Positions 3,440 to 55,002 of a stretch of DNA of 64,000 nucleotides are shown here, piece after piece (the stretch's first letter is position 1; each line of letters starts with the position of its first letter). Both the position numbers and the translations under genes were made by a program. Under the pieces are notes generated by a model. That model did not search any database and was not told the origin of the DNA. It saw only the letters and a program-made list of their open reading frames with translations. The stretch comes from Oryzias latipes (taxonomy: Eukaryota > Chordata > Actinopteri > Beloniformes > Adrianichthyidae), in assembly GCF_002234675.1 (NCBI RefSeq), contig NC_019879.2:24671855-24735854 (forward strand), given 5' to 3'.

Positions 3440-6400
3440 AAGAACCACGAACAATTTAGCAATAAAACTTGATGAATACTGGAAGGAGATGCAGCACAGG
3501 AGGAAAAAAGAAAACCCAAACAACTCCATACCGGTGGAGGACACCATGTAGGTATAATCTGCTCTGACTGGCACCTTGTAATCATGGAAAGTAGTTGAAC
3601 CAAACTGACTCTTCAGGAAGCGACCGGACCAGAACTGGGTGCAGTGTGATGGCTGCCTGAAGTGGCGCAGAGTCCCAGATGGGATTGATTGCAAGAAGCT
3701 GCCGGATGAATGGTTCTGCCGGATGAACCCGGACCCTCAGTTCAGGTAAAATGATGTTAGTCTTCTTGATTTTGGTTTGATACTTTGGAAATATTGAAAG
3801 TCTTACTTTTGGCCACTTGCTCCTAATTGAATTAGTTGTGTATAGTTAAGAAAACGCTCTTCAAAAAAAGGTCTCATGTTGAGTGACAACCAGGCTACAT
3901 GGAGAAGATGCAAGAACTTTTCTTGACCTTAAGAAAAACAGCAACTCCCATTAATTAAGCTCCAGCTGACCCACGGCGAAGCACGGCTGTCATGCTGACC
4001 CAGCCGTCGCCCAGCGGGATCCTCGGTTCTCCTTCCTCCGCGGAGCTCGGCGGCTGGCTGCTGAGCGCTGGCATAGACCCAGCCGTCCCCCAGCACCTGG
4101 GTCCGCTCCAGCCGCGGGGAATGTGTTGATCTAATATATTTTTTCAAATGTTAACGCATATGATTTATAAAAAAGGTGCTCAATAGCCCTGGACCTATTG
4201 TCCTGCTACAACAAAGATGATTTTCCTGCCAACAGACCGTCAGCAGCCGTCTCGCTGCATGTCTGCATTTAAAGCACGAAGAGAACGTTTCTCATTAAAA
4301 TGCAGAATAAAACAGAAACATTTTTCTTTAGAAATGCATTTGTAGTTCACTCTGTGTTAATATAAAACTTTTGTCACAATTGAACGTTTATCAGAAGAGT
4401 TATTGAAGCAGGAAGTCCGAATCTGTGAAGATCATTCTAACTTTACAAAGTCCTCTGAATCCTGCACTCTGGTTTTAGTTTTGACACAAGTGAATGTGTC
4501 AGAATTCAGAGCGCAGTTGTAGCGCACTTGTGATTTGCGCCAGCAGATTCGAGCACACGCAGAAGCACATTTGAGAAGTTGTAATCACAGATTTGAAGTC
4601 TTAACTCTAAATGAACACATGCAAATGGGAATTTGTTTGTTCACAGCAGAAGATTTTTACACACAGATGCAGATTTTTGGTGTGCAAGTTCTCACATTCT
4701 ATATTACAAGTTCTCAGATCAAATCAACAAGTGCGTTCTTTTTGGAGCATATTTACCTTTATAACTGTGATTTGGACAGCAGAGAGCTTGTTCAGGAAAT
4801 CAAGAACTTGCCTAACTTGCCATCAATGACTCTAAGTCTCCTTGAGCTCATCATTTCCATGTCTGATAAGGATCTATCAGAAATCTATTCTAACTTTTGG
4901 ACTGCTCTCAGGATTGGACTCACCTTGCCAGTCACTGTGGCTCAAGCAGAGAGGAGCTTTTCAAAACTCAAGTTGACCAAGTCATACCTAAGGTCACCAA
5001 TGTCTCAGGAGTGACTCGCTAACCTTGCCGTTGTTAGTATCAATCATTCAGTGGGGGAGCAGATTTTATGGGATGACGAGTTTGCATCAAGGAAGGCTAG
5101 AAAGGTTAGGTTTTAGTTAGTGTTTTCTGTTCTTAATGCAATGGTGCTGGGGTTGGACTCTCTACCACTCTGGAGTTGCTCATGGTGAAAGGCAGCAGGC
5201 TGGTGTGGGCTTACTTATGAGCCCCAATCTCAGCCGCCAAGTGTTGGAGTTCATCTCAGTGGACAAGAGGGTCATGTCCCCCGCCTCCGGTGGTTTCGGC
5301 TTACGGTCCAAACAGCAGTTTGAAGTAACCAGCCTTCTTGGCGTTTCTGGAAGGTGTACTGGAAAGTGCCCCAACAGGGGTCTCCATTGTCCTCCTGGGG
5401 GACTTCAATGCCCACATGGGCAATGACAGTGGCACCTTGAGGGGCGTGATTGCTGATCTGATCTCTGATCTGAACCCAAGTGGTGTTTTGTTATTGGATT
5501 TCTGTGCTTGTCATAGTTCCTCCATAACGAACACCATGTTCGAGAACAAGGGTGTCCATCAATACACCTGGCATCAGGACAACCTAGGCAGGAGGTCAAG
5601 GATCGACTTTGTAGTTGTTTCAGGTGACCGTCAGCCTTGTGTCCGGGAATGGATGAAGTCCGCCCTGAGTACCTCAAGTCTCTGGATGCTGTGGGAGTGT
5701 CTTGGCTGACACGTCTCTACAGCATCTCGTGGCAGTCGGGAAAAGTACCACTGGATTGGCAAACAGGGGTGGTGGATCCTCTCTTTAAGAAGAGGTACCG
5801 GAGGTTGTGTTCCAACTACCCCAGATCCAGGAACAACAGTGCGTTTTCCATCCTGGTCGTGGAACAGTGGACCAGCTCTAGGGTGCTGGAGGGTTTGTGG
5901 GAGCTTGCTCATCCAGTCCATATGTGTTTTGTGGATTTGGAGAAGGAGTTTGACAGCGTCCCCGTATCCTGTGGAGGGTGCTCTGGGAGTATGGGGTCCA
6001 GGGAGCCTTACTGAGGGCTGTCCGGTCTCTGTATGACTGGAGCAAGAGCTTGGTTTGCATTGCCGGTAGTAAGTCAGACCTGTTCCCAGTTCACGTTGGA
6101 CTCTGGCAGGGCTGCCCTTTATCACCAGTTCTGTTCATAGTTTTCATGGACAGAATTTGCAGCAAGGGGCCGGAGGGGGGCTGGTTTGGGGACCACAGGA
6201 TTTCCTCTCTGCTCTTTGCAGATGATGTTGTCCTGTTGGGTTCATTGAGCCAGGACCTCCAGCGTGCATTGGGGCGGTGTGCTGTCGAATGTGAAACGGC
6301 TAGAATGAGGGTCAGCACCGCTAAATCTGAGGCCATGGTTCAGGTTTGGTAGTGACGGATGGATGGCGTTCAGTTGAATTCACAGAAGTGTCATTGTTTG

Positions 6401-9400
6401 AAAATTGATGATGGAGTCTTTGACATATCAAAATACATCTGTGAAGGAAAAAGCCTGGAGCGAGATTTGTTATATTTGAACAATTTCAACATTTCACACA
6501 AAGCCTCTTGCAAATGTGAGTACATGGGCTAGTATCAGTTAGCAACAGGCCAGTGTGAACACTATATGTTAAAAGTGCATTCAAGAACCTGCGTTCAACG
6601 GGTTCTTGAATGGACCACACATGCTCATTGTGGACGTAGTATTAATGTTTCTCCTTTTTGCTCCTTCAGGAGCTGCAACGTAGAGGAGGAGCCAGAAGAC
6701 TCAGATGATGAACAACCATCATATCGCAAAACCTACAAAGAACAGTGAGATCGGTTTCATTTTCAGGAGGGAAATATAAAAAAAATACTTGCATGAATTT
6801 TTAAACAACTTAATTTACTACAGGGAGAGGGAGGACAAGATGAAAAAAGAGAAAATACAACAGGTACACCATCTGCTACTGTGAAGCAGTTTTATTTAAT
6901 TCTGTTATTTAAATGTTTTACTGCTAAAGTTAATATTCAATTCTTTAAATATTTTGAAATGTTTTCTGTTGTAAGGCTCGACAAATTCTTGAACAGCAGG
7001 AGAAGGAGCGTTTTGCTGCGATCGCGGCACAAAACAGCGCTCTCAAAAAGCAACATGACAAGCTGAGACGACAGCTGCGTCAAATGGTACATCTGCTTCA
7101 TTGCTGAAACGCGACCTTTGCATATGCTTTGAATGTACGGTCACAAAAGATGCTTAGATCCGGTGGAAACAAGAACCATTGGCTGCAAAGTTCGACTGGG
7201 GTGAGTGTTGCCAGACAGCAGAGGGTAGAGGCGTGGAAGAGTTTAGCAGAGGTGGCTTTTGTGGTGATGGAGACACTGTCAAATGAGGTTAAACAGGACC
7301 ATGATGTTTGCAGATGACACTGTGATCTTTAGTGGGAACAGGTGGAGGAACATCTAGAGGTGGAGCTTTGGGAAGGAGAAGAATGAAGGTCAGCTCCAGC
7401 AAGACAGCGTATTTGTGTGTAAAGGAACGCATCTCAAGTGGAATAATGAGGTTACAAGGAGCAGAGAGGCAGAAGGTGGAGAACTTTAAGTTCTTAAACT
7501 CAACAGATTATGGAAAAGAGGTGAAGAGTCGTTTGTAAAGTGATTGACAAGTGTCGGCAAGAATGAGAAGAAAAGCATAGAAGACTGGTGAAAGCAGCAA
7601 TGTAGTTGGTGATTTAGAGACAGGAGGCTGAGCTGGAGGTGGCAGAGCTGTTAATGTTTAGGTTCTCTTTGGGATTGACAAGGATGGATACGAACAGGAA
7701 TAATAGGATTTTATAAATTGAAAACGTTCAGGCTTTTAGTCGATTTCTATGGAAATGTTCTTCATCTTAAAATGCAATCTCACAGCATGCATAGAGTAAA
7801 GCTACATACCAGTAAATGTTTTACAGTTGTTTTTTGTGATTTATAACCAAGAATCATATTTAAAACTGTTATTTGAAAGGGATGCCAATAATAAGTGAAA
7901 TAATATAGAAAAATAATATTGAAGAAAAATGAAAAAAAGAAAACCCTGAAAATAATTTCTGTCCAGGCTGCGGTCCAGCTTGGGATGCAACCATTTACTT
8001 TCCCAATGATTCGGTTCACAGTTTTTTTTCAGTCGATACGGTATATGATCTGTGTATTGCAAAGCAACAACATTCACTCATTCATTCAACTTAAAAAAAC
8101 GTTTTTTCCCTTTGGGTTCAGGGGGCTCCTGGAGCCTATCCCGGCCACTCGTGGGCGAAGGCAGGGTACACTCTGGACAAGTCGCTAGTCTGTCGCAGGA
8201 CCATAATCACACACCCATTCACACCTAGGGGCAATTTAGAGTAACCAATTAACCTTTGAAGCATGTTTTTGGACAGTGGGAGGAAGCCGGAGTCACCGGA
8301 GAGAACCCACGCAGGCACGGGGAGAACATGCAAACTCCACACAGAAAGGTCCCCCGTTGATATTCTGTTTCAGGTCCCGGGGGGCCTTCTTGCTGTGAGG
8401 CAAGACCGTTAACCATTGGGTGCAGCCAAAGCAAAAACAAAATATAAAATGTGTGTCGTGTGACACACATTTTGTGACGTGTGACGTAATAAAACAATAA
8501 ATCCTTCTTAAATTTAGCAAAACGCCTGTTTAATACGTTCAATGTAAAGAGACTGGATTGCAGTATGGATGCAATAATTCACTTTCCCTTTGATTCGGTT
8601 CATTGCTGTAACATACAGTTCCGTTTTTGATCCAGAATTGAGTCATCCCCAAATCCAACAGGGTTTTTGTTTTTCAGAACACGCTAGAATTAATTCAGAA
8701 TGTATCACAGAAATATGTTGGTTGGATTTACGGCTTACATCGATGACCAAACGTGTTTAAGATGATCAATAGTTCACAGGGACTCTGTCTCTTGTGCAGT
8801 CTCCTTCTACCTCCTCAAACGTGGGCAGCAGCTCCCTCCAGGAAGGTACTGTGAGGGCTGTGACCCCTCCCCTCAGAACTACTACTATTTCACAAGCGGG
8901 TAAGGAAAGCGCTCCTTGTTCAATCCTTTGATTTTTAAATAGTTTGAAATATTTTTTTTTCTTTGAGCAGCGATGAGTCCTTCCATGAACAACGGACTTC
9001 CAGTGGTTACTGTTGTGTCTTTGGTGTCTGCCAACCCCCCTGCTCTGTGAGTGACTCCTACACTGCAAAAAAAGAAAAGTTGGTAGAACTTAAAATTGTA
9101 AGGCAACAAACTTCGGTAAAATTTTGAGTTAAGGACCGAAACTCAATATTTTAAGTTTTGTGTTTTGGTTGTTTTCAAACTCATTTATCTAAGTTCTTCT
9201 AATTCAGTTGTAAGTTGTATGAACTCAAAAGTTCAAGTTGGATTAACTTTGAATCGTAATTTTGAGCAACTCAGATTTAAGTTACAGTGACCTAAAATGT
9301 CACGTCATCCTAGTTCTGAATCTTAATTTTTCACAACTCATGCTTAAATGTACAAACTTAATTTTTTAGGCTGTAACAACCGTAAATTCCGATTATTGAT

Positions 9401-12400
9401 GGCTTCTCCAAAGGTTGAAATAACTTAAATTTGAGTTTTGAGAGCACCTCTGTTTTTGACTTTGAATACAGCTTCATAATTACACATAGTTTTTACCCTG
9501 CCACATTTCCATATTTCTTTATACAACCTAGATCTTTTCAAGATCATTCGGGCACAGGTGAGTAGTTACTGCTCACCTGCATGTGTGCAGTGGGACAAAT
9601 ATTTAAATTTGTCCATACCCTATGACTACAACAACATGAGGGTCACTTCTCTTCATAGCTCTCTAACTCAAGGTGTGGGAATCAACACTTCCCATGAGTC
9701 TTAGTTGCCATGGGCGGGGCTAAGGCCCGGTTCACCAAAGCATTGTTTACAAAATGGCTGAAGCCCTGGGGGTGTTCCAGAAAGAAGGTTATAGTTACAA
9801 CGGTAAGTTTGTGGCTAAGGACGTTGATAACCTAAGCTTTCAGTTCCAGTGTTTCAGGATATGCCAAGTTGCCATAGCAACTCATGCTCTGAACATAACC
9901 TGGTCTGGAGCAGGTTTAGTTGAAGGTTAGTTTGTTTACAGAGAGGTGAAGCAGCATGGTGTGTCCATTTGAAGATGATTTAGTGGATGAAGAAGCTCAG
10001 ATAATACTTTTTCCACCATGAGAGGGTGATAAAACCACATATGGATGTTGGAAAGATAAACTTTTTTACTTTGATCTAACGTAATTATTTGCTTCAGTTA
10101 AGATAAATATATTTTTTTGTGTAGTCATCTTAAAAATAACATGTAGTTATCAGACAGTTATTTTACTTTCATTCAAATTAATTCAATTAAGTAGGTGTAA
10201 CTTTGATGCTGCTGTTAGATCGGCACCGCAAGGAATTGTGGGATACAACGTACTTTATGTACTTGCTAATACTTATGTCATTAAATAAGAGTTAAAACTT
10301 CTGCAGACACTTCTTAACAAACCACTCAATCAGTGGACATTGCCAACTCCAAAAGTTGGCATTCCCGCATTTCACAATTAAAAAAGATAAGTTCACAGAA
10401 CTTTATCACACTGTAATGAAATACAACTTAGATATATAAGTACAGACAACTCAATAAATAATGTTGAACTGTACGACTACCTTAACTTGCTGAACTGACT
10501 TAAATTGTTGAATTGATTAGTAGAACTTAGATTATATAGTTATTACAACATAAAAGATTTTGTTAAGTCAAAAAATTTAAGTTGGATTTATTACAGTGTA
10601 AGACTGAAGTGTTGATTATGCAGAATATATCTGGATTCCATCTACTGTTTTTGCCCTGTTGGTGCCAATATTTTGTCCTCTTTTAGAATTTTAAAATCCA
10701 GTTTTATGCAGTTATATCAATAGATTTTTTTCCTTTTCTTTTTTGCTCACCTTTCTTGCGTTCGAATTTTCTCACTACTCACTACTTAGAGCAATATATA
10801 GTGTGCTCGCCATTTTTTTAGGCTGTTCAAATCTACAATTCTAACATTTAATGCCCTGATAGTTTCCCAGAAGTCTCTGCAACAAAACTATTTTCCATTG
10901 ATGGTCACTAGATTGGCAAATCTAAAAATACACCAAAATGCATTGCGTTTGGATGATTTACTGTTTGAAATTAATGTATTTAAATGTATTTTTTATAAAT
11001 CATTTAACTTTCAGGATACAGTGGATTTGTAGTCTTCATAAAAGGTTCATATTTATTATTTTTTTTACATCTGCAAATGGATGAGCTGAGCGTAATTCTA
11101 CGTTCACACCGACTGTAACTGACTTATTAAATTTGTGTCTGCTGCCTCTTTTTCGATGCTCCTCAAATTTGCTGCTCAATACTTCTGTTACTGCAGGGGT
11201 TTTGGGAAGCACCCAGGTGCAGAGAGGAGGAGCCAGAAGGTTCCAGGAACACAGGTCTTTAAGAACTGATGAGTCCAAAAATACTAAACAAAATCACTGC
11301 AGCAGGCAGGCAAACTTGAAACTCGAAAACACTTTAAGGACAGAGGAACTCGGGAGCATCAAACAACATCAAAACTATGGATCAGCACAGGAGGAAGGGA
11401 AAGACAGGATTTAAATACATACAGAACAGACGAGACACAGGTGGAAACAATGAGAGCCGATGGGGACTAAAAGTACAACACGAAACAACAGCAAAACAGA
11501 AAGCCTATCAAAATTAAACAGGAACTGAACTCAAAACTATGACAGAAACAAAAGAGAACCAGAACACAAAAGCAAGGAAACTAAAACTGTGACAACTTCT
11601 CCAAAAAATTATTTATAAACCTGAGGCTCCAGTTGCAAGTGGGAGGAGCTACTATTATGTTTAAGCATTGACTGTATATCTCATTTCCAATGCCCAGAAG
11701 ACACAGATGATGTTGAGAGTTCAGGTTTATTTATTTTAAAAAGAGCTTTTTCAAAAGTATTGATACGCACATTTCCATGTCTGAGTTCATGAGGTCATTT
11801 AAAGTCTTTTTTTTCACCTTCTACTCCAAGAGCTGCATCTGAATGACGTCACTTTCAGCAGAGCTTCTGTGTCTCTGTAACCCGGTTTGGTAACTTGCTG
11901 CCCCAAGGACAGAAAAAATAAAAACAAAAATCATAATCTCTCAATGCAAATTAAAAAAATTATCATGAAGACCCACTCCAAACATCTTCTGATCTATTTT
12001 AAAGATCAGTGGCAGGACGGAGAGCATATCTATGTTTGCCATGAATGACATATGACGTGAATAATTAATTCATTCACATAAATTAATTATTGCGTAGGAA
12101 CAAGATATTGTTTTGTGGGAACGAGATATTATTTCGTTCGCACAACTAAATTATTGCGTGGTGGGAACTAGGGACCGGTATCGTTAAGGCTTTAACGGTA
12201 CTACTACTCTTATTGGTACTGCTTATCGATCCGGTATTCTAACAAAACTTTTATCGATACTTTTTGTGGATGAAAAATAAATAAATAAATAACAAATTAA
12301 GAACAAAGTGTTTTATTTCCTCGTTATGCAACAACATTGTTTTCTTTTAACAAAACAATTTACTTTATACATGATAATGTAACAATACAAACCTGGTGGG

Positions 12401-15400
12401 CGTGTGGATGTGCTAGACCAGGGGTCGGCAAACTGGACCTCTCAAAGAAAAATTTTGATCAGTTTCCCACTGAGATGAAAGCAGAGAGGGAGCCGCAACA
12501 CTAGGTGTGTTAGAAAAAGGTTTTTGCCGATATCTAGTGATAGTTCATTTGGCCATACTTGTATTGATTCGAAATGCTGTCAGGATATTTATTTCCTAAT
12601 TTATTTTAATTATTTTTATTCTTTATGAGCGTGATGTTTCCTTTGATCTTTTGTCCATTTTCCACAACCTTGAACAGACATTTCCATCTGTCAAACACCC
12701 AGAGTTAAGATGAATGAGATGATGGAAACAAATTCACTTTGATGCAGAGTCCTTTTTATTTTTTGTTTTATTTAAATCCAGTAAACCCAATAAATTATAT
12801 TAATTTTTTGAATGATAACTATTTTTTATTAGTAAGCAGCTGTTAGTTTGTCTGGAATCATAAGCGGTGAGTCTAAGCCCCGCCCCCGCCTCTCTACCTG
12901 TTCGTTGTTTCCCCCACATGGAACCCACCCTCCAGTGTGTTCAACATACGGTCATCATAGGAGCACGGTGACAAGATAGTAGGGGCGCCCTGACACAAAT
13001 TTAATTCATTTTACGCAGAAATGGGTGGTCTTAGTCCAGGGGGATAAAAGGATTATTTGGGGGGGGGGGGGGGGGGGGGGCGCTCATGTGTCCCTACGAT
13101 ATCGCCACTGACTGTCTTTGTAGAAGAACTTTACATCCCATAACAGACTCTGTAGACACACCCACTCCGTGCGTTCACGCTGCTCTCTTCCTCCTGCTTA
13201 CTCGCTCTACCTGACAGTGTTAAAGGCACCATGACAATCTGAGAGCATGATAGTTATTTTACAAAACCCCAGAGAACCGCAGCACAAGGAGGAAAGAGCC
13301 GCATTTTGGAGCGTTTAGCTCTTTCCGCCATCGTATATCTTTGGTAGCGTTGTGTCCACGTCCTTGTCGGGTCTGTGCGCACGCCGCGTACTGTCTGAAC
13401 AACAGCCCCGCCCTCCGTGCACACAAATAGCCAGACAGACCCCTCCTCTTCAGCTAAAATAGCTAAATTAATATAATCATTAATTAACGGAAAATTGACT
13501 GAACTGGTGAGTTCAATATGGCAGATAGCGTTATTTTGTGGGACACACAAAAAAAAGCGACTTCTCCAGTACCGATATCAGAACCGTTGAGATCAGATCT
13601 TAACGATACTGCGGTCTTGAAGAATGTTGCCCCAGGGCTCGTTCAATACCGGGGCTCCGTACCCATCCCTAGAGGGAACGAGATATTCTTTTGTGGGAAC
13701 AAAATATTTATTGTTTTACCGATGTCATTTCATGGGCTCAGTACACCTCGATATCAATAAAGAAATACGCAATTTGAAGCTTAATCTTCTGAACATTTCC
13801 CCTCATCATGAAAGAAATGTTACAAGAACATGTTAAATACACCCAAACCACCATTTTCATTAGAGTAGGAATTTACATTTTATGAGGAGAACGATCAGGT
13901 TCTCCTCCATGTTTGTTTTGGACAAAATAACGAATATATTAGCATATATTTAATATTTTAATATCACATAAAAGTCACACCTGAGTATGTGGCATCCCTG
14001 GCAAAAACATGCAAAAAAAACAACAAACATCACTTTACTCCAAAAAATACGGTATATAGTCTTTTAAGGTTTGGGCAGTGATTGACTTTGTCTGCTTCTT
14101 TTTTAACGATGATCCTAAGTTTGTTGTTTTTGCTTTTCAACAGAAAAAGAACACAGCCTTCTCCTCTAAGTACACCAAAAAGGCCCAGAGTGAATCTCCC
14201 ACACAGGATCTCTGGAACATTGGCAGAAAGGGACACACGCTCTCCATCTGTGCCCCCTCATATGGAGGATTTAGACGACACCACCACCATTAACTACATT
14301 TCCATTTTGGAGTCTAGTAGCACTCCAATGCCAGCAAAGCCTGTTGATGATGTAACCAAAGTGCAAAAGGAGCAGACAGAAGAGGGCGTAAATGGTGTCA
14401 GCATGCTGTTGGATTGCACTGACGACGCTGCCGTGGAGTCCCCCTCGGAAAAAAACACTGCAGAAACGGGACGTCCCACAGTCACCGTCAGTGGGACGGA
14501 GGAGAGCCAAAGTCTAGCTGAAGGGAATCAAACTGTTGAATCAAACAGAGAGACACATGTTGAGAAGAGTACTACTGAGGTACAGAAGCAGCAGGATGAT
14601 CTGTTGGAGCTTCTCCAAGACGCCATCCAGGAGAGAGACGGCTTCAAAGAGGAGCTGCAGAAAGTCACCTGCCAGCTGCAGGAAATGCAAAAAAAACTGT
14701 CTGAGGCGAGCCAGAAGACGAGCTCCAAGCAGTCATTCCAGGCGGAGAAAAGTGAAGAAAGGGACTACAAGGCTTTGTTTGAGAGGGTCAAGCAGAAAGT
14801 GCAGGATCTGATGAAAGATAAACAGGCTTTAATAGCAGCTGCAAGAAGAGAAACTAAGCTTAGTGCTGAAGAAAAAGACATTGATGAGATTTCACTTCAA
14901 GTTGGATGTTTGGTGCAGGAGCTGGATAAAAGAAACCAGGAGCTGGACGAGCTCCGTTTACAGGTGGGTAACTCAGTTTCTAATGTTCACATGTCTTGAT
15001 AAAACATTTCTTACTTGAACACTAACATAGACTGACTCTGAAAGGCTGCAGTTGTTTTAGTATCAATTGATTGTAAAACTAAAGGGTGGGATGAGGGTCA
15101 GAACCATCAAGTCCAAGCCCGTGGAACTTGATCAGAGGAAGGTAGTTTGTCTTCTCCAGGTGGGTAGAGAACTCCCGCCCCTGGTGGAAGAGTTTAAGTA
15201 TCTCGGGTTCGTGAGAGAGGGAAGATCGGAGCGTGATATTGACCGGTGGATTGGAGCTGCGTCTGCTGTTATGCCGTCACTGCACCAGTTCGTTGTGGTG
15301 AATAGAGAGCTGAGCCAGTTGGCGTCTAGCTGCCAGGGCTTGGAAAACGTTAAAACCATAAGTGTCACAGTGATGAATAAAAAGCAAATGAAATGTAAAC

Positions 15401-15813
15401 GATAATATTATTGATTTAAGCAGCTCATTTCGTATTTTGGTTTCATCAACATGCTCTAAACCTGTTACTGTTCTCCATTGGTGTTCACCATCAGCTCAAC
15501 AGCCTGGAAGAGGAAAGATTAAGGCTGGCTGCTGAGTGTGCAGAGAAACCAGGAGGATCAGCAGAACCTGATGAAGCCAGGAGGAGGTTTGTCTGTTGAT
15601 AAATCATTCTACTATATTGAGAGTTAAATGACTAACAATCACCTCTAAAACTGTTTTTTGTTTTGTCCCTTTAGTTTGATTGAACTGCGTCAAAACGTCG
15701 GGCGGCTTCTTGTCTCCTCCATGCCGGCTCTTGAATTGGATCAAGTGAATTATGAATGTAACGTCATCGATGAAATCCTGGAGCAATACCTGTCCGGCAT
15801 AGATTCCAACTGA
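3440..15813 (+). CDS. morc3: MORC3-like gene, copy 1, exons 10-19 (5' part lies left of the window)
   Basis: MORC3 is a nuclear GHKL-ATPase whose CW zinc finger reads methylated histone H3K4. Exons seen, numbered after copy 2: 3440-3547, 3617-3745 (CW domain, with four Cys and the conserved Trp residues), 6670-6744, 6824-6863, 6976-7086 (basic coiled coil), 8800-8899, 8971-9046, 14144-14963 (a PKRPRV-type nuclear signal, a DYISILE-like SUMO-interacting motif, then coiled coil), 15495-15586 and 15675-15813 (C-terminal domain, stop TGA at 15811). All junctions have GT and AG ends and phases agree. With the 1118 nt of copy 2 exons 1-9 added, the protein would be about 935 aa, near the family's usual length. 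ATPase exons are outside the window. It is the only copy here with an intact 3' end. Exon 17 lacks a segment present in copy 2. Family assignment is firm; a or b paralogue status is not resolved. Confidence 0.93.
4730..5116 (+). pseudogene. hAT transposase C-terminal remnant
   Basis: The conserved hAT dimerisation-region pattern is visible ([16 protein letters not shown] followed by SYLRS and SQE). A TGA at 5012-5014 interrupts it, and the same frame continues to a TAG at 5114-5116. No N-terminal part is present. It lies in copy 1 intron 11 and is not present in the matching copy 2 intron. Confidence 0.75.
5130..6352 (+). pseudogene. LINE (non-LTR retrotransposon) remnant with endonuclease and reverse transcriptase
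   Basis: At 5338-5640 an endonuclease-like frame is readable ([10 protein letters not shown], then [11 protein letters not shown]). From about 5640 the sequence jumps to reverse transcriptase: a GCPLSPVLF block and FADDVVLL with the catalytic Asp pair near 6220. Several frame changes and a large internal deletion separate the parts. It lies in copy 1 intron 11. Another piece of what looks like the same family is at 15067-15345. Confidence 0.8.
7190..7700 (+). pseudogene. RTE-like LINE remnant in copy 1 intron 14
   Basis: Short stretches match a common fish non-LTR element, including the FADDTVI catalytic block at about 7303-7330 and a KVSSSKT-like block. The same remnant is in the same intron of copy 2 (42660-44130), so the insertion predates their duplication. 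It is badly decayed. Confidence 0.6.
8110..8430 (-). repeat. Common fish SINE-like repeat, copy 1 intron 14
   Basis: Read on the minus strand, the block contains the familiar fish motif of GTGTGGAGTTTGCATGTTC followed by CCTCCCACTGTCC further on. It has no coding capacity. The copy 2 partner intron lacks it at the matching place. Confidence 0.5.
9061..10598. mobile_element. CACTG-ended DNA element in copy 1 intron 16
   Basis: Ends CACTGCAAAAA and TTTATTACAGTG are flanked by TA on each side. The interior is AT-rich with many AACTTAAGTT-like short inverted motifs and no long frame. Copy 2 has the uninterrupted flank at about 45891. It is a non-autonomous element of uncertain superfamily. Confidence 0.6.
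11186..11594. mobile_element. Solo LTR (409 bp) in copy 1 intron 16
   Basis: It begins TGTTACTGCAG and ends AACTGTGACA (TG...CA ends), flanked by the exact 5-bp duplication ACTTC at 11181-11185 and 11595-11599. The matching copy 2 sequence at 46394-46398 has a single ACTTC and no insertion. No internal retroelement region is present, so it is a solo LTR of an unassigned family. Orientation is unclear. Confidence 0.75.
12169..13671. mobile_element. hAT-like non-autonomous element in copy 1 intron 16
   Basis: Ends TAGGGACCGGTA and TACCCATCCCTA are flanked by 8-bp repeats GTGGGAAC (12161-12168) and GAGGGAAC (13672-13679). It holds part of the MITE family seen at 574 and 39337 (about 12500-12620) and a poly-G run at 13059-13080. 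No transposase is visible. Confidence 0.65.
13680..14143. other. Remaining intron 16 of copy 1, no recognised feature
   Basis: This is AT-rich intronic sequence. The last part before exon 17 (from about 13980) is conserved with copy 2 (53810-53996). I see nothing else in it. Confidence 0.5.
15067..15345 (+). pseudogene. LINE reverse-transcriptase tail fragment in copy 1 intron 17
   Basis: A readable frame shows a VEEFKYLG block followed by [12 protein letters not shown], typical of the region downstream of the RT catalytic core in a common fish LINE. It appears to continue from where the 5130-6352 remnant stops. The matching intron in copy 2 has been deleted. Confidence 0.65.
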
Positions 15814-19467: not shown

Positions 19468-19472
19468 TTTTA

Positions 19473-23665: not shown

Positions 23666-23676
23666 GCTGGAGGGAA

Positions 23677-24717: not shown

Positions 24718-24880
24718 CGCTGAGATGGAGTCTCTCTGAAGCGCTGGGCTGGCAATGTAGCACCCTCGTTATTCAAGTCCCACGGTGTGCCCACTGCTGT
24801 TTTGCTTTTAAAAACAAACTAAAAAGACATTTAAAAAAACAAAAATCCAGATCCAAGTCTTAAATTCAGTAGAGGAATCC

Positions 24881-24899
24881 GATCCTGCCGACAACGCCA
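24881..24899 (-). other. Gypsy primer-binding site, serine-tRNA-like
   Basis: On the minus strand, three bases after the 5' LTR, TGGCGTTGTCGGCAGGATC matches the complement of the 3' end of vertebrate tRNA-Ser (AGA type) with one mismatch over 18 bases. The tRNA comparison is from memory. Confidence 0.65.
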
Positions 24900-24902
24900 C
24901 TT

Positions 24903-27844: not shown

Positions 27845-30800
27845 ATGGCAGCGCAGGCTGGTGGCGGGGTTCCGTTGAGCACGGTAAGTTTCACTTTCTT
27901 TGGCTGGTTACAATGATTTAAAACGTTTACTTTTAAAATATAAAAAAATCGAGTTTGCATTTGTGGTTAATAAAATCACAAACACTGCGGTGTTGGTGGT
28001 GTTTATCACCATTGAAATAACCCATAATGTTTTAGGATGTTGTATGTATACCCAAAAACTAAAACGTTGTAAATTCGAATTCGGATTATAAAATGTATTT
28101 TAACATGAAAACGTCTGTTTACAATTTGGTTAATCAAAAGTCTTTAGTCAGGGTTGTATTTTTATTTTTTCATTTTTAACGTTTTTTTCCAGGAATATAA
28201 AAACTCACCGTTAGAGTGAACTGACAGGAGTTTCCTGATTTTATGACGTCACTACTGACACAAACAACAACTGTCTAATTAAATTATTAAGTATAAAATT
28301 AAATTAACATAAATGGTTCATTGTCTTTTCAAATGGTATTTTTGGTTCTGTTTTTTCTTTTTAAATCCAAACATTGTGATGTTTTTTTATTTGTTGTTTT
28401 GAACCTCATAAAATTATTTTTCTAAATCCTTCATGCTGTAAAATACATGCTAGTTGACACTTGGAAATATCTTTAGAATGAAATATCTTGTGTGTTTTCC
28501 TGGAACTTTGCTTTGCATTTAAAGACCCACCATGTCATGACAATCTTTTGATCTGTTGTAAAGCAGTTACAAACACATGTGAGAAAAATCACACATCTGT
28601 CTAGAAAAATATTATATTTAACAAATTTTCTCATTATGTTTGTCTCTCATTTGGAATTAAAGTTTAACATCAAGTCAAACTAACTGGTTTTTGTTGCAGC
28701 TTGCACCAAAGTATCTCCACACCAACTCTACCAGCCACACCTGGTCCTTCAGCGCCATCGCTGGGCTCATCGGTGAGTCATCATCATGAAGTGTATTACC
28801 ATGTAACTTATTACGTGATTATTTAAATAGTAAGTAAGAAGAAGGTTGACATGTTTGTGATCGTTGCTAATCCCACTTTCCCAGACAATGCCTATGATCC
28901 AGATGTCAGCGCCAAACAGTTCTGGATCGATAAAACTATGATTAAAGAAAAACTGTGCCTCACCTTTATGGATAATGGAAATGGACTGGACCATGAAACT
29001 ATGCATAAAATGCTCAGGTACAGATTATATTGTGTTGTAGTTTTTTAAAGTTATAGAAAATGGGTTCTTTCTTTAAACTTCTCTTTACATTTCTGAAATG
29101 TTAAACAATATTCTTTCCTTCTTTACTTTTGTTTGAAATGCACACCACAGAAACTGATTCTTAATTTCATTGCAAAAGTGACAATAACATATATACTTTC
29201 TTATTTTAGTTTTGGATACAGTGACAAGACTGCCATAAAGGGACACGTGCCCATTGGGATGTATGGAAACGGCTTTAAGTCTGGATCTATGCGTCTGGGA
29301 AAAGACGCCATTGTCTTTTCCAAGTCAGAGAGTGGAATGTGTATTGGGATGCTTTCCCAGACCTACCTGGAATTGATTGGTGCCAATCAAATTCAAGTAC
29401 CGATTGTTTGCATCACAGAGAGGAATTTGATCAGCTATATCCTTTTTAACTGACAATCTTTCATTTATTCGTTCATCCTATCTGGACGATTGGCGGTTAA
29501 CATGTTCTGTGTAACCTGTTTGACTGTTCTGTTTGTCTGAGCTTTGAATTGATCACACATTGTTTTTCTGTTTGTTCCAACATGTTCTTTGCCTTTTTCC
29601 TTCACTGTCTTCACTTTCAGTTAGAGAGGAGCACAGAGCCAGTCTTCAGGATATTCTGTGCTATTCTCTTTTCAAAACACGGGAGGAACTGCTCGCTGAA
29701 CTGGACGCCATCACCTCTTCCTTCTCACAAACAGGCACACGAATCATCATTTGGAATCTGCGCAGGTCTGTCTGTTAATGTCATTTGGTGTTTTTAATAG
29801 TCTTGATATGCGGTTGCATCAATACCTCACAGTGAGGAGGTGCTGGTTCAAATCCCAGCAGGGTCCTCTTTGAGTGGAGTTTGCATGTTCTGCAAGTGAT
29901 TACTCCGCATGACTCCTGCCTCTTTTTACAACCAAATGTTTATTAGTGGCTCTAAATTTTCCTCTTTGAAGTGAAAGCATCTGTAGCTCTGAGTTCGAGC
30001 CATGAGATGATTTGGCTTGGCGATCCGCATGACCCTGCAATGACAGCAGGAAATAAAGATGAATGGACTAAGAGGACGCATTCTGGAAAACTGCATCTCC
30101 AAGAGACAATTAGACCCATGGTGGCATGTATGTTGCCAAATAAAGGCATCCTTCCTGGTGCTGTGGCACGGTGATGATCACTGCACAGAGTTTGTTCCCA
30201 GAGGCAGCAAATTTACAGTTTAGTGTTGCCACACTGTGAGATCTACTGACTGACCTCTGTGGTGTGAATCTTAGTTGGTTTTCAAAACTTTAGTGTGAAA
30301 GTTTGATGACCATTGTACTAAAAAAAAGGTATAATCAACTAATAGGTATGCAATGATTCACTTTTCCCACAATTTGGCTCAAACCTCAATTTTTGTATCA
30401 TGGTTTTGTTTCGGTTCAATAAATGATTTGTGTATAAAAAAACAGCGACGAAAAACTGTCAACTATCAGTTGACTGATACTAAGCCTGGTGTAACGTAAT
30501 ACAGTGTTCTCTTGTTTATCTTGGGAGTTATTAGACAAAACCCAAAATAGCTAAAATCTGCAAAGTAGGATCACAGAGGTTTTGAGAAGTAAAACTCCTC
30601 GCTACATACTATACATTTTTCTCAGGCAGACATGAACATTTTCATACTTTCTTTTTGTTAAAACTCTCAATCAATCAAACTTTCGTAGAAAATACACCAG
30701 CTAAAGATCTGATAGTGATCAAAGACTTGGTCTGAATGCTTTCTGTACAAGAGACAGTGTATATAGGAGAATAATTGACAAGGTCAACAGCCGATCAGGA

Positions 30801-31018: not shown

Positions 31019-34000
31019 CCCACTGAGCTAGTGGTGATCGGCGAAAATGCTTTCATTTTATATGCACAATATGGACACCTATAATTGTAAAAGTTTGGAT
31101 GATGTTTTTTTTTTGTGGGAGAAACGCAGACACACTGCTGGGGCCGACTATAGGTTGACGTCATGAAATGGGTGGCATCCACGACAAAGTGAAAGGTGGT
31201 GCCTAAGAGATCGAGTCATCTTGCTTCCGGATTGAAGAAAAGCTCAGGGAATTAACTAAATTTGACTTGTTTTTTAAAAAGATCTTTTGTGTACCAAAGG
31301 TAAAATATGATTATTTACTTGGATATTGTTTTCTATAAAAAGGCTTAAGCATAGCATGGTCTTAAATTGGTCAGTGCATCTAAAATTGCACTGAAAAAAA
31401 TCAGTGACAACATAAAAGGTAACCTGGAATATAGTCCGAAACAACAGTAAATCAAATAGTAAATCCTTCTGTAATTTAGCAAAGCAAACATGTTTGACAC
31501 TTAAACATCTGCAGTAGGGATTCAACGACTCACTTTCCCCACAATTGGGTTCAAAGGTGTAACGTACAGTTTGGTTTTCAACCAAGAATTGTGGCATCCC
31601 AAATGCTTTTGAAACATAAATGTCTGGTAGCTCATTATTCTTTCTGATGTGTTTTTTTAACAGAACGGCTACAGATGCTACAGAGTTTGACTTTGAGACG
31701 GATCGCTATGACATCCGAATTCCCTCTGAGGTCTATGAGGCAATCGGTGACCCTTCAAAAGTTTCGGACAGGATGACATCCCATATTCCTGAGACTGTTT
31801 ACTCTCTACGGGTGAGAAGCAGAACATTTCCCCAGCTTTTGTTTAGTTGACATGTTTGTCTGTATGATTGTTTCGGTAACGCTGTAGTTTGAGTTTGTCT
31901 GACTGGACGATGTGCATGAATGAATATCTTGTCTGTATTGATTAAAGTTACTGTGTTTATTGTGTGCAGGCATATTGCAGCATTCTATACCTAAAACCTC
32001 GGATGCAGGTGGTGTTACGAAGTAAGACGGTCAAAACGGTGCTAATTGCTAAAAGCCTGGCCTGCATGAGAAAGGACTTTTACAAACCCATCTTCCTGGT
32101 ATCCTTGCATGGAAGTATCACTGCTGTACTTTTGTAAAAGTTTCTTTTCCTGCTTTATATGTTGTTTCCTTAAATGTTGTTCTAGAACAAACGTGTTCCC
32201 ATACATTTTGGTTTCAACACCAAATCAAAAGATCAGTACGGTGTCATGATGTATCACAAAAATAGGCTGATCAAAGCTTATGAGCGTGTGGGCTGCCAGC
32301 TCAAGGTGAGTAGCGTCCACAAAAGACTTTTAACTCAGCATGACCTTCAGGGTTTGTAATGTTAGCATGTGCTGCATTTTACAGGCCAACAACATGGGTG
32401 TTGGCGTCATTGGGATCATAGAGTGCAACTTCCTGGATCCAACACACAACAAGCAGAGTTTCATTGAGTCTGATAAGTACAGGTATGAACAGAAAATGTG
32501 GATTCACCGTTTGAATTGTGTTCTGATTCACAGTTCGTCCTTATTAAACATTTCTGTAAGTTTAACCAGAATTTCTTCTCTAAACAGAAAAACCATGAAC
32601 AATTTAGGAATAAAACTTGAAGAATACTGGAAGGAGACGCAGTACAGGATGAAACAGGAAGACCCAACCAACTCCATACAGGTGGAGGACACCATGTAGG
32701 TATAATCTGCTCTGACTGGCACCTTGTAATCATGGGAAGTAGTTGAACCAAACTGACTTTTCAGGAAGCAACCGGACCAGAACTGGATTCAGTGTAATGG
32801 CTGCCTGAAGTGGCGCAGACTCCCAGATGGGATTGATTGCAGCAAGCTGCCAACTGAATGGTTCTGCCGGATGAACCCGGACCCTCAGTTCAGGTAAAAT
32901 GTTAGTTTTCTTGATTTTAGTTTGATGCTTTGAATCATTAAAAGTCTAACTTTTGTCCACTTGCTCCTAATTGAATTAGTTGTGTATATTCAATAACTCG
33001 TTCTTCAGAAAAAGGTCTAATGATGAGTGACAATCTATGGAAGCGATTCTGTAGCATAATTAAAAATAAAAGTCAAAACCAGAAATGCTTTTTCATTTTC
33101 AAAATGAAGCTGCATTTTTTGATTCAAAATTAAATTGAAAAATCAATCCTTCAAAATGCTTTTTCCTTTTCTACTTCAACACTGCATATTCTGTCACTTA
33201 ATTAAAATGATAAAGAAAAAAGTAGTTGAGATTTCCTTATCAAAAAGATATCTGGTGAATGTGTAGCAAAATTAATTTATAAATGTCTAATTTGACAATT
33301 AAAATGCTTTTTAATTTTCAAAATGTAACTGCATCAAATGACTCAAAATTAAAATAAAAAATCAATACTTCAAAATTAATTTCATTTCTACTTAAAAAAC
33401 GCTTATTCTGTGTTATAATTAAAACGAAAATGCAAAAAAGATTTCTTGGTGGCCCTAAAACTCCGTTGTAGAGCAGCCAGCAGGCGAAGCAATTTTTAAT
33501 CGTCTTTTTAATGCTGCAGCCCGTGCAAGACAGGAGCTAGTGATAATGACGTTTGAGATATCTTTAACTTTCATTCTGCCTATGCAAAACAGAATTACAG
33601 ATATCTGCAATTGTCATTTAAGATGTGTGACGAGTTGAATGTTGTTTTCAATGACGTCATTGCAGACATCTGTAATTCAGTTTTGCCTAGTCAAAACTGC
33701 ATTATAGATATCTCTCTCGGTTGTCTTGAATTACAATTCCAACTATTCAAAATGTAATTACGACTAATCAGATAAACGTTGGTGATATCTACAATGTTAA
33801 TTCCGGATAGTCAAACTTAACTTTTAAATGTTAAAATGACTTGCGATAGCCGGTGTCCGATAAATGCATTTAGACATTAAAGAAAAACACAATTAGAAAC
33901 AATAGACCACAACAAGAATCAAGTTTCTCATGCACAAGGGAGAAGAAAACCAGTGTGACAGAAGTCAACCACCACGCTGCTCTTCTCAAAGGTTCTGCTT

Positions 34001-52000: not shown

Positions 52001-54872
52001 ACGACCGGATGTGAATGAGACTGCCGAACTCAAACACTATTGTGAGATTGTTGTCCATTAACTCTTGGCTCAAATGATTTCGAATAAGGATTTCATGTTT
52101 GTGTTTTCCTTTGTTCTCTTTCAAAATAAAAATGTGTTCCATCAGATCCGTTATGTGAAGCAGCTTTTGCTTAACTGAGCTCTGCTGGTAAACCTTTACT
52201 TTAGCCACTGATGCTGCTATCTCAGTCTCGAAATTCCGTTCTTTCCTTTTCCTGAGCTGTTCCTCTTGCATGCTAAAACATGCTTTTGTTTTAATATTTT
52301 CTGTCTTGCCATTAATGCAGCAATGTCTGCTTCTGCTTCAACGCATACTGAAGATGCTGAGGATAGAGATGATCTACTCCTACTTGACTGACTTTTTATT
52401 TGATCTTCTGCTGCCAATGTTGGTAACTTTGTTACTTGGCTTCACATCATCTACAATTACATCATCGCTGTTATTTGAGCCATGAGAAATTTATGATCCG
52501 GAGGCTTTTTTTGACTAGTGAAGGTTCAACACATGACTCAGACTGTTGTGGATGAGAGGTTTCTCCTGGCGTGGGAGCTTTAGGGTCACATGACTGGCCA
52601 TATACATTTCAAAGCCAACTTCCAACTTCAGCTAGAAATGCGGCATTAAATCTATATATGCTTGAAAACTACTTATTTTGCAGTGTTTGTTCATCTAATG
52701 GAAGTAGTTGAATGACAGATTCATGAAGCTGATGCACATCTTTCATTAATGTCTTTAAGTTATCAGAGTGAGACTGAACAATCTTTACATTTTCTTGAGT
52801 TTGCATAAATTCTTTGAGGTTTCTTATTATAGTTTTAATTTCATTAACCTTTCTTTGACGTTCTTTCTGTAGCTTTTCACTCTTGCTTTTCAGAGCTTTA
52901 ATTGTGAGCTTTGACTTTCATCTTTATTTTTAACACCACAGTTTGATCTAGAATCGTTTGGCTCTAATTTATTGTTTAAACGTCAGGATGAGTTATCATT
53001 ACTGTCCGTCTTCAGGCGCATACATCTGTTGTGTGTGCTTCCATACCTCAAGTCCAATGATTTTATTAGTGAACGCCATATCAATCTGTTGATGAATGAA
53101 CGTAGTAGGCCACTGCGCTCCAATAGCACCTGTCATGTCCAGCAGTTTCCAATTTCAGAAGTGATCAAATAAACTTTAAGTCATCCAGGCTAATAATTGC
53201 ACTGATCGATGTCTCTGAGAGTCATAATTTGTTGACTTAATTGTTGCAGCTAAACAGCGTTGAGGGCCGGCATGGGCTAAACTCCGGCTTCTCTGTCAGA
53301 CGGGTGTTCCAATAAAACTCCAAACTTCTGCCAGCTATGAAGTATTTATTTCATTCCTCTGCAGGTTTCAAACCCATACAATCCAAACAAAGAATAAATG
53401 GAATACTCCAGCAGTGACAAACGTCCAGTTCCATGCAAATAACTCAGTCAACAAATTATATGACCACAAGTTCATCCCACTCCCTGATCCATTGATTTAC
53501 GCCACGAGTGAGTCAGTGAGCACCTTTCAACCTTTGTGCCACACACGCCCACAGCAACACACCTACCACTTGACTGATGACGCTGTGCTTCACCTGTGCA
53601 ACTTCCATTATGGCTCCTACAAACACCAAAACCACCATTTTCATTAGAATGGGACTTTAAAGTTTATGAGGAGAACGATCAGATTCTCTCTCTTATTCTG
53701 TGTTGCTGTCAGTAGCAACTATGACGCATACCTGTAGAGCCCTATAGCGGTTGTTAATGGCAAAATTCCCTATATTCTAGCATATATCTAATATTTAAAA
53801 ATAACATACAAGTCACACCTGAGTATTTCGCTGGCCCTGGCCAAATCATGCAAAAAAAAAAAAACTTGTACTACAAAAAATACAGTATATAGTCTTTTAA
53901 GGGTTTGGGAGTGGAAAGGGATTTTGAACATGGCCAAAAACTTTGTCTGCTTCTTTTTTAACAAGGATCTTAAGTTTGTTTTTGTTTTTTCAACAGAAAA
54001 AGAGCACAGCCTTCTCCTCTGAGTACACCAAAAAGGCCCAAAGTGAATCTCCCACACAGGATCTCTGGAACATTGGCAGAAAGGGACACACGCTCCCCCT
54101 CTGTGCCCCCTCATATGGAGGATTCAGATGACGACATTTCCATTTTGGAGGCTTGTAGCACGCCAAAGCCAGCAAAGCCTGTTGATGATGTAAGCAGAGT
54201 GAAAAAAGAGCAGACAGAAGAGGGCGTAAATGGTGTCAGCATGCTGTTGGATTGTACTGACGACGCTGCCGTGGACCCCCCCTCTGAAAAAACCACTGCA
54301 GAAACGGGACGTCCCACAGTCAGTGCCACCACCCAGACAGAGGTGTTCAATGTAAAGCTGGAGAAGGAGAGCCAAAGTCTAAAAGAAGGGAATCGAACTG
54401 TAGAGCCGGGCACATTTAGCACAAATGCCACACAGAGCTTGAATGCCCAAAGTCTGAAGACGACTGAGATCAAGCAAGAGAAGAACAGTCAGGGTGAGGA
54501 GAACATGCAGAACGGAGAGACACATGTGGAAAAGAGTACTACTGAGAAGCAGCAGGATGATCTGTTGGAGCTTCTCCAAGACGCCATCCAGGAGAGAGAC
54601 GGCTTCAAAGAGGAGCTGCAGAAAGTCACCTGCCAGCTGCAGGAAATGCAAAAAAAACTGTCTGAGGCGAGCCAGAAGACGAGCTCCAAGCAGTCATTCC
54701 AGGCGGAGAAAAGTGAGGAAAGAGACTACAAGGCTCTGTTTGAGAGGGTCAAACAGGAGGAGGTTTGTCTGTTGATGAATCTTTCTACCATATTGAGAGT
54801 TTAATGACTGTAACAATCCCTCGAAATCAGGATGTATAACTGTTTTTTTTTTCATCCCTTTAGTTTGATTGA
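27845..54872 (+). CDS. morc3: MORC3-like gene, copy 2, whole gene with altered ATPase residue and truncated C-terminus
   Basis: Exons: 27845-27883, 28700-28772, 28885-29017, 29210-29436, 29615-29765, 31664-31811, 31970-32098, 32186-32305, 32385-32482, 32588-32695, 32765-32893 (CW), 42138-42212, 42305-42344, 42457-42567, 45636-45735, 45805-45880 and 53997-54762, then the last exon from 54864. The sum to 54762 is 2523 nt (841 codons). The ATG at 27845 has a good Kozak context (A at -3, G at +4). GHKL motifs DNAYD, DNGNG and GNGFKSG are present, followed by the transducer-like region, CW finger (about residues 409-452), coiled coils, nuclear signal and SUMO-interacting motif. Oddities: residue 35 is Gly where family members and copy 3 have the catalytic Glu; a deletion removes the distal coiled coil and exon 18, so joining to the last exon reaches a stop at 54870-54872. 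Otherwise the frame is open throughout. It may encode an altered protein of about 843 aa or be an early pseudogene. Confidence 0.92.
27884..28699. other. Intron 1 of copy 2, no further feature
   Basis: Ordinary intron with a GTAAGT donor and a TTGCAG acceptor. Its first 400 bases match intron 1 of copy 3. Confidence 0.7.
28700..28772 (+). other. morc3: Copy 2 exon 2 with Glu-to-Gly change in ATPase motif I
   Basis: The exon encodes the start of the GHKL fold. Codon 28763-28765 is GGG (Gly35). The aligned codon in copy 3 exon 2 (62323-62325) is GAG (Glu). The difference is one A-to-G change at 28764. In GHKL ATPases this Glu is the general base that activates water for ATP hydrolysis. A second difference, Ser for Pro at residue 29, lies just before it. 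The following Asn39, which coordinates magnesium, is kept in exon 3. Confidence 0.95.
29437..29614 (+). other. Probable U12-type AT-AC intron 4, MORC3 copy 2
   Basis: No GT donor fits the end of exon 4, but the exon is followed directly by ATATCCTTT, the minor-spliceosome 5' splice consensus. Near the other end is TTCCTTCAC, close to the U12 branch-site consensus, about 10 nt before the AC at 29613-29614. Using AT-AC the frame continues through Ser-Phe-Ser-Val-Arg. An AG six bases further on (29619-29620) would also keep frame, but it is missing from copy 3. The intron is 178 nt long, identical in both copies. Confidence 0.8.
29818..29905 (+). repeat. tRNA-derived SINE-like fragment in copy 2 intron 5
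   Basis: GGTTCAAATCCCAGC is a B-box-like pol III element. GGAGTTTGCATGTTC follows, the usual companion in fish SINE-like repeats. It is truncated at both ends. Confidence 0.5.
30937..31013 (+). repeat. (AC)n microsatellite in copy 2 intron 5
   Basis: An (ACGC)n start passes into an uninterrupted (AC)n run. Confidence 0.98.
32099..32185 (+). other. Probable U12-type GT-AG intron 7, MORC3 copy 2
   Basis: The donor reads GTATCCTTG, which fits the U12 5' consensus and fits the U2 consensus poorly. TTTCCTTAAAT lies 10-20 nt before the CTAG acceptor and closely matches the U12 branch-site consensus. Exons 31970-32098 and 32186-32305 join in phase 0 across it. The intron is 87 nt long. Confidence 0.82.
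33036..34841. mobile_element. Fold-back element with long inverted repeats in copy 2 intron 11
   Basis: Ends TATGGAAGCGATTCTGTAGC and its complement are exact for 20 bases. Inverted similarity runs for several hundred bases through AAAATGCTTTTT-type repeats. Direct repeats ACAATC (33030-33035) and ACAACC (34842-34847) flank it. Copy 1 has the empty site at about 3883-3895. No coding frame. Family unknown to me. Confidence 0.75.
34848..38800. other. Copy 2 intron 11, mid part, no recognised gene
   Basis: AT-rich intronic sequence. Around 35400-35900 lies a block that resembles 41280-41510 inside another element. Open frames here are short and show no family motifs. Confidence 0.45.
39098..39289 (-). 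pseudogene. LINE reverse-transcriptase fragment
   Basis: On the minus strand it reads [18 protein letters not shown], the RT block with the first catalytic Asp, for about 60 aa. Related non-coding sequence continues on both sides of the hAT-like MITE at 39337 (to about 40690), so the MITE split this LINE. Confidence 0.75.
39337..40429. mobile_element. hAT-like MITE
   Basis: Ends TAGGGGTGTAAG and ACACCCCTA are flanked by 8-bp repeats GTCTGAAA (39329-39336) and GTCTGAAC (40430-40437). It is the same family as 574-2821. No coding capacity. Confidence 0.78.
40708..41840. mobile_element. hAT-like non-autonomous element
   Basis: Ends TCGGGTTGGGCGATG and CATCGGCACAACCCTA are flanked by the exact 8-bp repeat GTGGGGAT (40700-40707 and 41841-41848). 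GATGGACGATGATATCGTC-like motifs lie just inside both ends. No transposase. Confidence 0.78.
42660..44130 (+). pseudogene. RTE-like LINE remnant in copy 2 intron 14, split by an L2 insertion
   Basis: This is the partner of 7190-7700. The MFADDTVI block is at about 42788-42812, and the 3' part (44007-44130) has the typical GGCGCCCCCTAAAGGAAGC end. It is interrupted by an antisense L2-like LINE at 43243-43998. Confidence 0.65.
43243..43998 (-). mobile_element. L2-like LINE 3' fragment
   Basis: On the minus strand it encodes the C-terminal part of a fish L2-type polyprotein: a [12 protein letters not shown] block, [21 protein letters not shown], then a LWNALP block. It ends in the TTTGTATAGCACTTT-type 3' tail. 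Direct repeats AGGTTGAT flank it at 43235-43242 and 43999-44006. There is a frame break between the two readable parts. Copy 1 lacks it. Confidence 0.82.
44522..45131. mobile_element. hAT-like MITE in copy 2 intron 14
   Basis: Ends CAGTGCTTCTCAA and TTGAGAAGCACTG are exact inverted repeats, flanked by CTCTAAAG (44514-44521) and CTCTAGAG (45132-45139). A poly-C run lies near 44580. Confidence 0.78.
47935..48095 (+). repeat. Fish repeat with GGAGTTTTTCCTTACTGTGAA motif
   Basis: The motif and an AATAAAAT-type end match the 3' part of a repeat family also seen at 55738, 57850 and 60480. Confidence 0.45.
48365..48457 (-). repeat. tRNA-like pol III unit (SINE head) inside the fold-back element
   Basis: On the minus strand, TAGCTCAGTGG matches an A box, and GAGTTCGAATC about 40 bases on matches a B box. 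The acceptor stem does not pair well, so this is a SINE-type relic rather than a functional tRNA. Confidence 0.4.
51618..52970 (-). pseudogene. Pao/BEL-type LTR retrotransposon relic (gag and pol start)
   Basis: On the minus strand, fragments resemble Pao/BEL gag: a serine-rich [13 protein letters not shown] block and coiled-coil stretches with Leu/Lys/Glu. After 51836 an [14 protein letters not shown] block recalls the start of Pao/BEL pol. Frames are broken many times and no LTRs were found. Clade assignment is moderate. Confidence 0.6.
52971..53800. other. Copy 2 intron 16, right part, no recognised gene
   Basis: There are short frames without family motifs. Sequence from about 53810 to exon 17 matches copy 1. 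Confidence 0.45.
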
Positions 54873-55002
54873 ACTGCGTCAAAACGTCGGGCGGCGTCTT
54901 GTCTCCTCCATGCCGGCTCTTGAATTGGATCAAGTGAATTATGAATGTAACGTCATCGATGAAATCCTGGAGCAATACCTGTCCAGCTTAGATTCCAACT
55001 GA
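54864..55002 (+). pseudogene. Last MORC3 exon of copy 2, read out of frame
   Basis: The exon is nearly identical to copy 1 exon 19 (15675-15813) and still has its acceptor and ancestral stop codon. It needs to be entered in phase 2. Copy 2 exon 17 now ends in phase 0 at 54762, so the third codon of the exon becomes TGA. The conserved C-terminal domain it encodes is therefore not made from the expected splice form. Confidence 0.85.

Follow-up and report, generated by a model that had tools for sequence, protein, structure and literature searches.

When one copy of a tandemly repeated ATPase gene lacks the catalytic glutamate, is it a gene on its way to decay or does it encode a partner that holds ATP without turning it over? 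The question is raised by a stretch of 64,000 nucleotides of Oryzias latipes (medaka) DNA (the whole stretch analysed, hereafter the window), in which three MORC3a genes follow one another head to tail. It bears on a wider problem: what ATP hydrolysis contributes to silencing by MORC proteins, beyond the binding of ATP, is unsettled, and the published mutants of MORC2 and MORC3 considered here disagree. With a confidence slightly better than even, the analysis leans towards the view that copy 2, the middle gene, is a constrained MORC3a pseudo-ATPase, one case of a teleost pattern, that would tune silencing through dimers.

The MORC3a array and codon 35 of its middle copy

All three copies were modelled in full with flanking DNA added, and the complete models encode proteins of 935 (copy 1), 843 (copy 2) and 998 aa (copy 3). 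Copy 1 starts left of the window and ends at 15813 (span −5661 to 15813, with exon 2 located 4.7 kb to the left), copy 2 extends over 27845-55002 and copy 3 runs from 59724 past the right edge of the window. A search of the genome DNA with exons 2-3 of copy 2 returned three sites, which correspond to these copies, although more diverged copies could escape such a search. The features of the array are the following.

3440..15813, + strand: copy 1 from exon 10 to exon 19, with exons 1-9 outside the window on its left; gene complete, Glu35
27845..27883, + strand: copy 2 exon 1, start codon
28700..28772, + strand: copy 2 exon 2, GHKL motif I (...SAIAGLI, then DNAYD...), with residues A15, S29 and G35
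28885..29017, + strand: copy 2 exon 3, DNA... and DNGNG, identical to copies 1 and 3
29210..29436, + strand: copy 2 exon 4, GNGFKSG
29437..29614, + strand: copy 2 intron 4, AT-AC (U12-type), boundary letters identical in the three copies
29615..29765, + strand: copy 2 exon 5
31664..32482, + strand: copy 2 exons 6-9 (singly 31664-31811, 31970-32098, 32186-32305 and 32385-32482), S5/transducer domain with the HNKQ motif and its Lys363
32588-32695 and 32765-32893, + strand: copy 2 exons 10-11, CW zinc finger
42138-42212, 42305-42344, 42457-42567, 45636-45735 and 45805-45880, + strand: copy 2 exons 12-16
53997..54762, + strand: exons 17 and 18 of copy 2, fused by a deletion so that exon 17 runs into the end of exon 18 with a shift of frame
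54864..55002, + strand: final exon of copy 2, translated in a shifted frame as FD*
59724-59762, 62260-62332, 62441-62573, 62782-63008 and 63187-63337, + strand: copy 3 exons 1-5, Glu35; exons 6-19 lie right of the window; gene complete

The intron that follows exon 4 begins ATATCCTT and is present in all three copies; an AT-AC intron start of this kind is typical of the minor (U12) spliceosome. Exon 14 of copy 3, 3.7 kb right of the window end, reads tgtacg at the usual acceptor position, so that its start probably differs from the usual one, and P0005, whose end matches copy 3, begins exon 14 later. Between copies 1 and 2 the minus strand holds a young LTR retrotransposon (18503-25867), whose end repeats are 99.7% alike over 966 aligned bases; in the three stretches of this element that were searched, integrase, RNase H and zinc-knuckle domains scored above the cut-off and PNMA just below its own. 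The stretch that separates copies 2 and 3 contains TTTAG repeated perfectly 17 times (58228-58312), after which imperfect repeats continue.

The reading of the middle copy as a protein without its catalytic glutamate proved correct at the level of the codon: positions 28763-28765 of copy 2 are GGG (Gly), where copy 3 has GAG (Glu) at the same place. Copy 1 also carries GAG at codon 35 and human MORC3 (P0204) has Glu at index 35. Asn39, DNGNG and GNGFKSG, described by the same reading as preserved, are unaltered in copy 2, and the role of general base that it gave to Glu35 is the one described for the related ATPase MORC2, in whose active site Glu35 is described as the general base, Asn39 binds magnesium and a transducer lysine completes the site (PMC5811534). 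Ten catalytic-site residues were checked in copy 2 and all of them are kept except residue 35; the nucleotide-binding Asn39, DxGxG, GxG and Lys105 remain, together with the transducer lysine. The latter, Lys363, is taken here to correspond to Lys427 of MORC2 on the basis of the HNKQ motif rather than of an alignment.

An NCBI protein of O. latipes, P0002, is letter for letter the copy 2 model minus exon 14; the two share Gly35 as well as the unusual C-terminal ending EEFD. This protein is listed on a contig of 36,041,365 bases, whereas the contig of the window has 31,148,813, which implies a different assembly, possibly of the same strain, and makes a single-assembly error at codon 35 appear unlikely. 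In P0002 the GHKL ATPase (HATPase_c_3), Morc6_S5 and CW zinc finger domains follow each other in this order, all above the Pfam cut-offs, and residues 1-461 match MORC3 structures with an E value of 1.3e-190, 6O1E and 5IX1 ranking first. Structure prediction of P0002 gave a model of low confidence (mean pLDDT 52.3, pTM 0.41), too poor for a fold search. The tree described below groups copy 2 with fish MORC3. Copy 2 shares with MORC3 (6O1E, 5IX1) the GHKL ATPase, S5 and CW domains and eight ATP-binding residues, and differs from MORC3 proper in having Gly for the catalytic Glu35 and in having lost the conserved C-terminal segment.

Tests for selection on copy 2 and the deletion at its C-terminal end

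The most serious alternative is that copy 2 is an early pseudogene, that is, a surplus tandem copy which lost Glu35 and its C-terminus under relaxed selection and whose protein is useless. This explanation is possible, if rather doubtful, and it has to be set against the fact that exons 1-16 of copy 2 are open and have usable splice signals, with no stop, splice or frame damage. It also fits poorly with the dN/dS check that had been proposed for the ATPase exons. Over the ATPase and S5 regions (409 codons), copies 2 and 3 differ by 15 synonymous and 16 nonsynonymous changes, which corresponds to a dN/dS of 0.28 (Fisher p 0.0006). These regions thus look constrained with respect to copy 3, so that neutral decay of the other ATPase exons, the outcome that the sequence-only reading had named as fatal to its case, is not what was found. 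Similarly, 20 of 1067 nonsynonymous sites in exons 1-11 differ between the two copies, a much smaller share than the 43 of 753 sites in short introns (p 2e-5). When the changes found only in copy 2 were counted over the full alignment, 18 were synonymous and 21 nonsynonymous, which is too few of the latter (P 0.0024 to 0.014, depending on kappa) given that 72-76% of copy-2-only changes would be nonsynonymous under neutrality, and this count likewise argues against the pseudogene. For exons 1-11 the equivalent figures are 9.5 synonymous and 11.5 nonsynonymous, a marginal result (P 0.044 to 0.10).

Other comparisons gave higher ratios. For exons 1-5 alone, dN/dS between copies 2 and 3 is 0.48; the CW part reaches 0.54, which is not significant, and exons 2 and 5, each of which offers few changes, reach 0.90 and 0.81 when compared singly with copy 3. 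Exon 2, with three nonsynonymous differences and one synonymous difference between copies 2 and 3, speaks for the pseudogene, as does the low divergence of these two copies (dS about 0.06-0.08), which leaves little time for decay to become visible. The likeness between copies 2 and 3 could come partly from gene conversion. In the ATPase and S5 regions, the pairs that involve copy 1 have dN/dS values of 0.51 and 0.52 (p 0.052 and 0.047). The changes that belong to copy 1 itself, 17.5 synonymous and 57.5 nonsynonymous over the full alignment, give no sign of constraint by this measure, and many of those in exons 1-11 are located at residues 374-439.

A further point in favour of the pseudogene is a frame-shifting deletion on which the sequence-only reading was silent. 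Compared with copy 1, some 0.78 kb is missing from copy 2 between exons 17 and 18; the junction is located within 54754-54762 and shows short microhomology, and the deletion corresponds to 14796-15577 of copy 1. Because the resulting fusion of exons 17 and 18 shifts the frame, the last exon is read out of frame and the conserved C-terminal 46 residues are lost. This segment (LRxxVxxLL...VIDEIL) is present in copies 1 and 3 and lies out of frame in copy 2. The ATPase region of copy 2 does not look like one in neutral decay, and the most fitting description of the copy is a constrained ATPase-S5-CW protein whose tail has been shortened, neither an untouched gene nor a plain pseudogene.

Loss of Glu35 in other teleosts

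Protein searches were performed with three queries (the copy 2 model, P0107 and P0091), which gave 1923, 1650 and 1679 matches over the threshold, and the union of the best 120 from each search made up a set of 231 MORC3 proteins. Among these matches, 215 of the 224 proteins in which site 35 is filled have Glu, and eight of the remaining nine are well aligned and carry Ala (5), Gly (1), Met (1) or Gln (1). Because all three queries are themselves Glu-less, 8/224 is not an estimate of frequency. The Glu-less proteins are distributed as follows.

Oryzias latipes copy 2: Gly35; Glu-bearing copies present in the same species
Oryzias melastigma, two proteins: Ala and Ala; Glu-bearing copy present in the same species
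Mastacembelus armatus: Met; the sister is without the stretch that holds the site
Tachysurus fulvidraco: Ala; Glu-bearing copy present in the same species
Tachysurus vachellii: Ala
Chanos chanos: Ala; Glu-bearing copy present in the same species
Denticeps clupeoides P0205: Gln; Glu-bearing copy present in the same species

The ninth protein, Silurus P0146, has Cys at column 35 and was excluded from this set since the letters of its exon 2 could not be aligned, and in P0106 an apparent gap at the site turned out to conceal the motif AELIDN. Among the matches listed, the Glu-less proteins span six lineages in five teleost orders, the two Oryzias species being counted apart. In five of the six lineages the same species has a Glu-bearing copy, and in the sixth (Mastacembelus) the site is missing from the sister. 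Although labelled isoforms X1 and X2, the two records of Denticeps differ at 25 of 440 shared residues and were therefore taken as two genes. In T. fulvidraco, Chanos, Denticeps and Mastacembelus the paired copies come from source contigs of equal length and probably lie on one chromosome.

A quick tree without bootstrap was built for 78 hand-picked proteins of the 231 plus copy 3; it covers residues 38-445 and so excludes site 35. It needs at least seven changes at site 35, and an origin in one clade was rejected. Two of the seven changes fall in Tachysurus, where a Glu-bearing copy is placed among the two Ala copies (support 81); for this reason six lineages are stated rather than seven, the tree keeping the two Oryzias species apart. 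The Glu-less pair of O. melastigma has longer branches than its Glu-bearing sister, which speaks for the early pseudogene. A link between the loss of Glu and changes at Trp28, Pro29 or Ser31 was considered and dropped, since some of these changes are shared by Glu-bearing sisters (Tachysurus, Chanos) and 25 of the 215 proteins with Glu also vary at these residues, in one case through a gap.

N39, D67, G69, G71, G98, G101, G103 and K105 are kept in all eight Glu-less proteins, and across the set of 231 proteins these ATP-binding residues deviate in one of 1823 filled cells, compared with 11 of 454 cells for the hydrolysis residues 35 and 363 (the Cys of Silurus included), a comparison that treats related proteins as independent. 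Column 35 ranks 160th in conservation among the 445 columns of this set, partly owing to the losses themselves. In addition, all eight Glu-less proteins retain the three Pfam domains. Between residues 38 and 445, 59 columns are invariant in the Glu-bearing proteins, and these columns changed six times in the eight Glu-less proteins, compared with 35 changes expected without constraint, as calculated from terminal branch lengths only. Of the six changes, five occurred in or beside the CW region (Q414, W425, D430 twice and L437); the sixth, E186, belongs to the ATPase part. That the residue was lost in six lineages while the invariant columns were so largely spared speaks against the early pseudogene; such sparing would be expected if ATP binding and the fold matter and turnover does not. 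Lys363 is altered in two of 230 proteins, the Gln35 copy of Denticeps and P0150, which has Glu35. The Denticeps protein (P0205) has both hydrolysis residues altered (Gln35, Met363) and its ATP-binding residues intact, and its Glu-bearing sister has Lys363.

The C-terminal segment gives a less regular picture. Among the matches listed it is absent from five of the eight Glu-less proteins and from 42 of the 215 Glu-bearing ones, some of which are partial models, and thus it does not strictly define the MORC3 family. The association between the loss of Glu and that of the segment (Fisher p 0.012) is only a hint, given the partial records and a profile built from 8 of the 15 listed seeds, those that match the pattern. 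A rule by which the loss of Glu always accompanies that of the C-terminus was discarded, since three of the eight keep the segment. In view of the deletion in copy 2 and of these proportions, an overall loss of function is possible.

Proposed mechanism, published mutants and remaining alternatives

If the constrained pseudo-ATPase is expressed, its intact pocket would still bind Mg-ATP and, without Glu35, the attacking water would not be activated and ATP would not be turned over. If ATP closes the N-terminal dimer and hydrolysis reopens it, a dead copy that dimerises with an active copy, or with itself, would probably alter the residence time of the dimer on chromatin and in this way tune silencing by MORC3. 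In the teleost pattern, one MORC3 member has dropped Glu while another in the same genome retains it.

Published work on engineered and disease-type mutants points in two directions. In MORC2, ATP binding is reported to close the N-terminal dimer and hydrolysis to open it, and variants in which hydrolysis is slowed match or exceed the wild type in silencing (PMC5811534); following this logic, a Glu-less copy would keep dimers closed for longer. The variants S87L and R252W, which hydrolyse slowly but still bind ATP and dimerise (PMC5811534), offer a model for a long-lived clamp; they differ from the fish proteins in that they affect other residues, have residual activity and gain silencing in human cells, and they are not paralogues. 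On the other hand, Morc3 E35A in mouse ES cells is reported to be present at low protein levels, to be mislocalised and to miss its targets (PMC8516933), and MORC2 E35A is reported to form less stable dimers and to have almost undetectable ATPase activity (PMC11185635). This behaviour means that a dead copy could be a weak or poisoning partner. In the engineered E35A proteins of MORC3 and MORC2 the residue is identical, and five of the eight natural proteins also have exactly Ala; however, E35A is a single change in an otherwise normal protein, whereas the natural Glu-less proteins differ from their sisters at many residues. We infer, as the sequence-only reading had suggested, a partner effect of the clamp or dominant-negative type, although the unstable mouse Morc3 E35A goes partly against it. 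The dead copy would most likely be a dimer-level modulator of the active copies, acting through either a longer clamp or poisoning.

Pseudoenzymes in general are duplicates without a catalytic residue in which the fold and the ligand site are kept. In the open-licence PMC literature searched, no report was found of a natural loss of Glu35 in MORC3, of MORC3 arrays in medaka or of a pseudoenzyme in MORC3; pseudoenzyme paralogues are already known, and one that recurs within MORC3 seems to be a new case. A broader and more tentative proposal is that, in at least six teleost lineages, one MORC3 copy has repeatedly been made into a hydrolysis-dead, ATP-holding partner that, as an asymmetric or long-lived clamp or as a decoy, would regulate the silencing of transposons, viruses and interferon genes beside an active copy. 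If the repeated loss has been selected, it would represent a clear convergent evolution of pseudoenzymes in an antiviral, transposon-silencing gene. For the question of what hydrolysis does, fishes in which a Glu-less and a Glu-bearing copy coexist provide a ready-made natural experiment, and one of them, medaka, is a genetic model animal.

Two further explanations have to be weighed. The dead copy could act as a decoy or guard whose binding surfaces absorb viral antagonists or set the threshold of the interferon response. Such a role is suggested by reports that MORC3 is antiviral, is inhibited by viral factors and triggers interferon when lost (PMC13373173) and that teleost MORC3 dampens interferon (PMC10775979), and it would agree with the lack of any sign of constraint in copy 1 (57.5 nonsynonymous and 17.5 synonymous changes), which either an arms race or a relaxation of selection could produce; the sequence, however, holds no specific pointer to a decoy, and this explanation is considered improbable. 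That Gly35 stems from a mistake in the assembly or in a base, or from a rare allele that became fixed in a single inbred strain, is very improbable: both O. latipes assemblies may come from one strain, but the identical protein is found on a contig of another size and like losses occur in other fishes.
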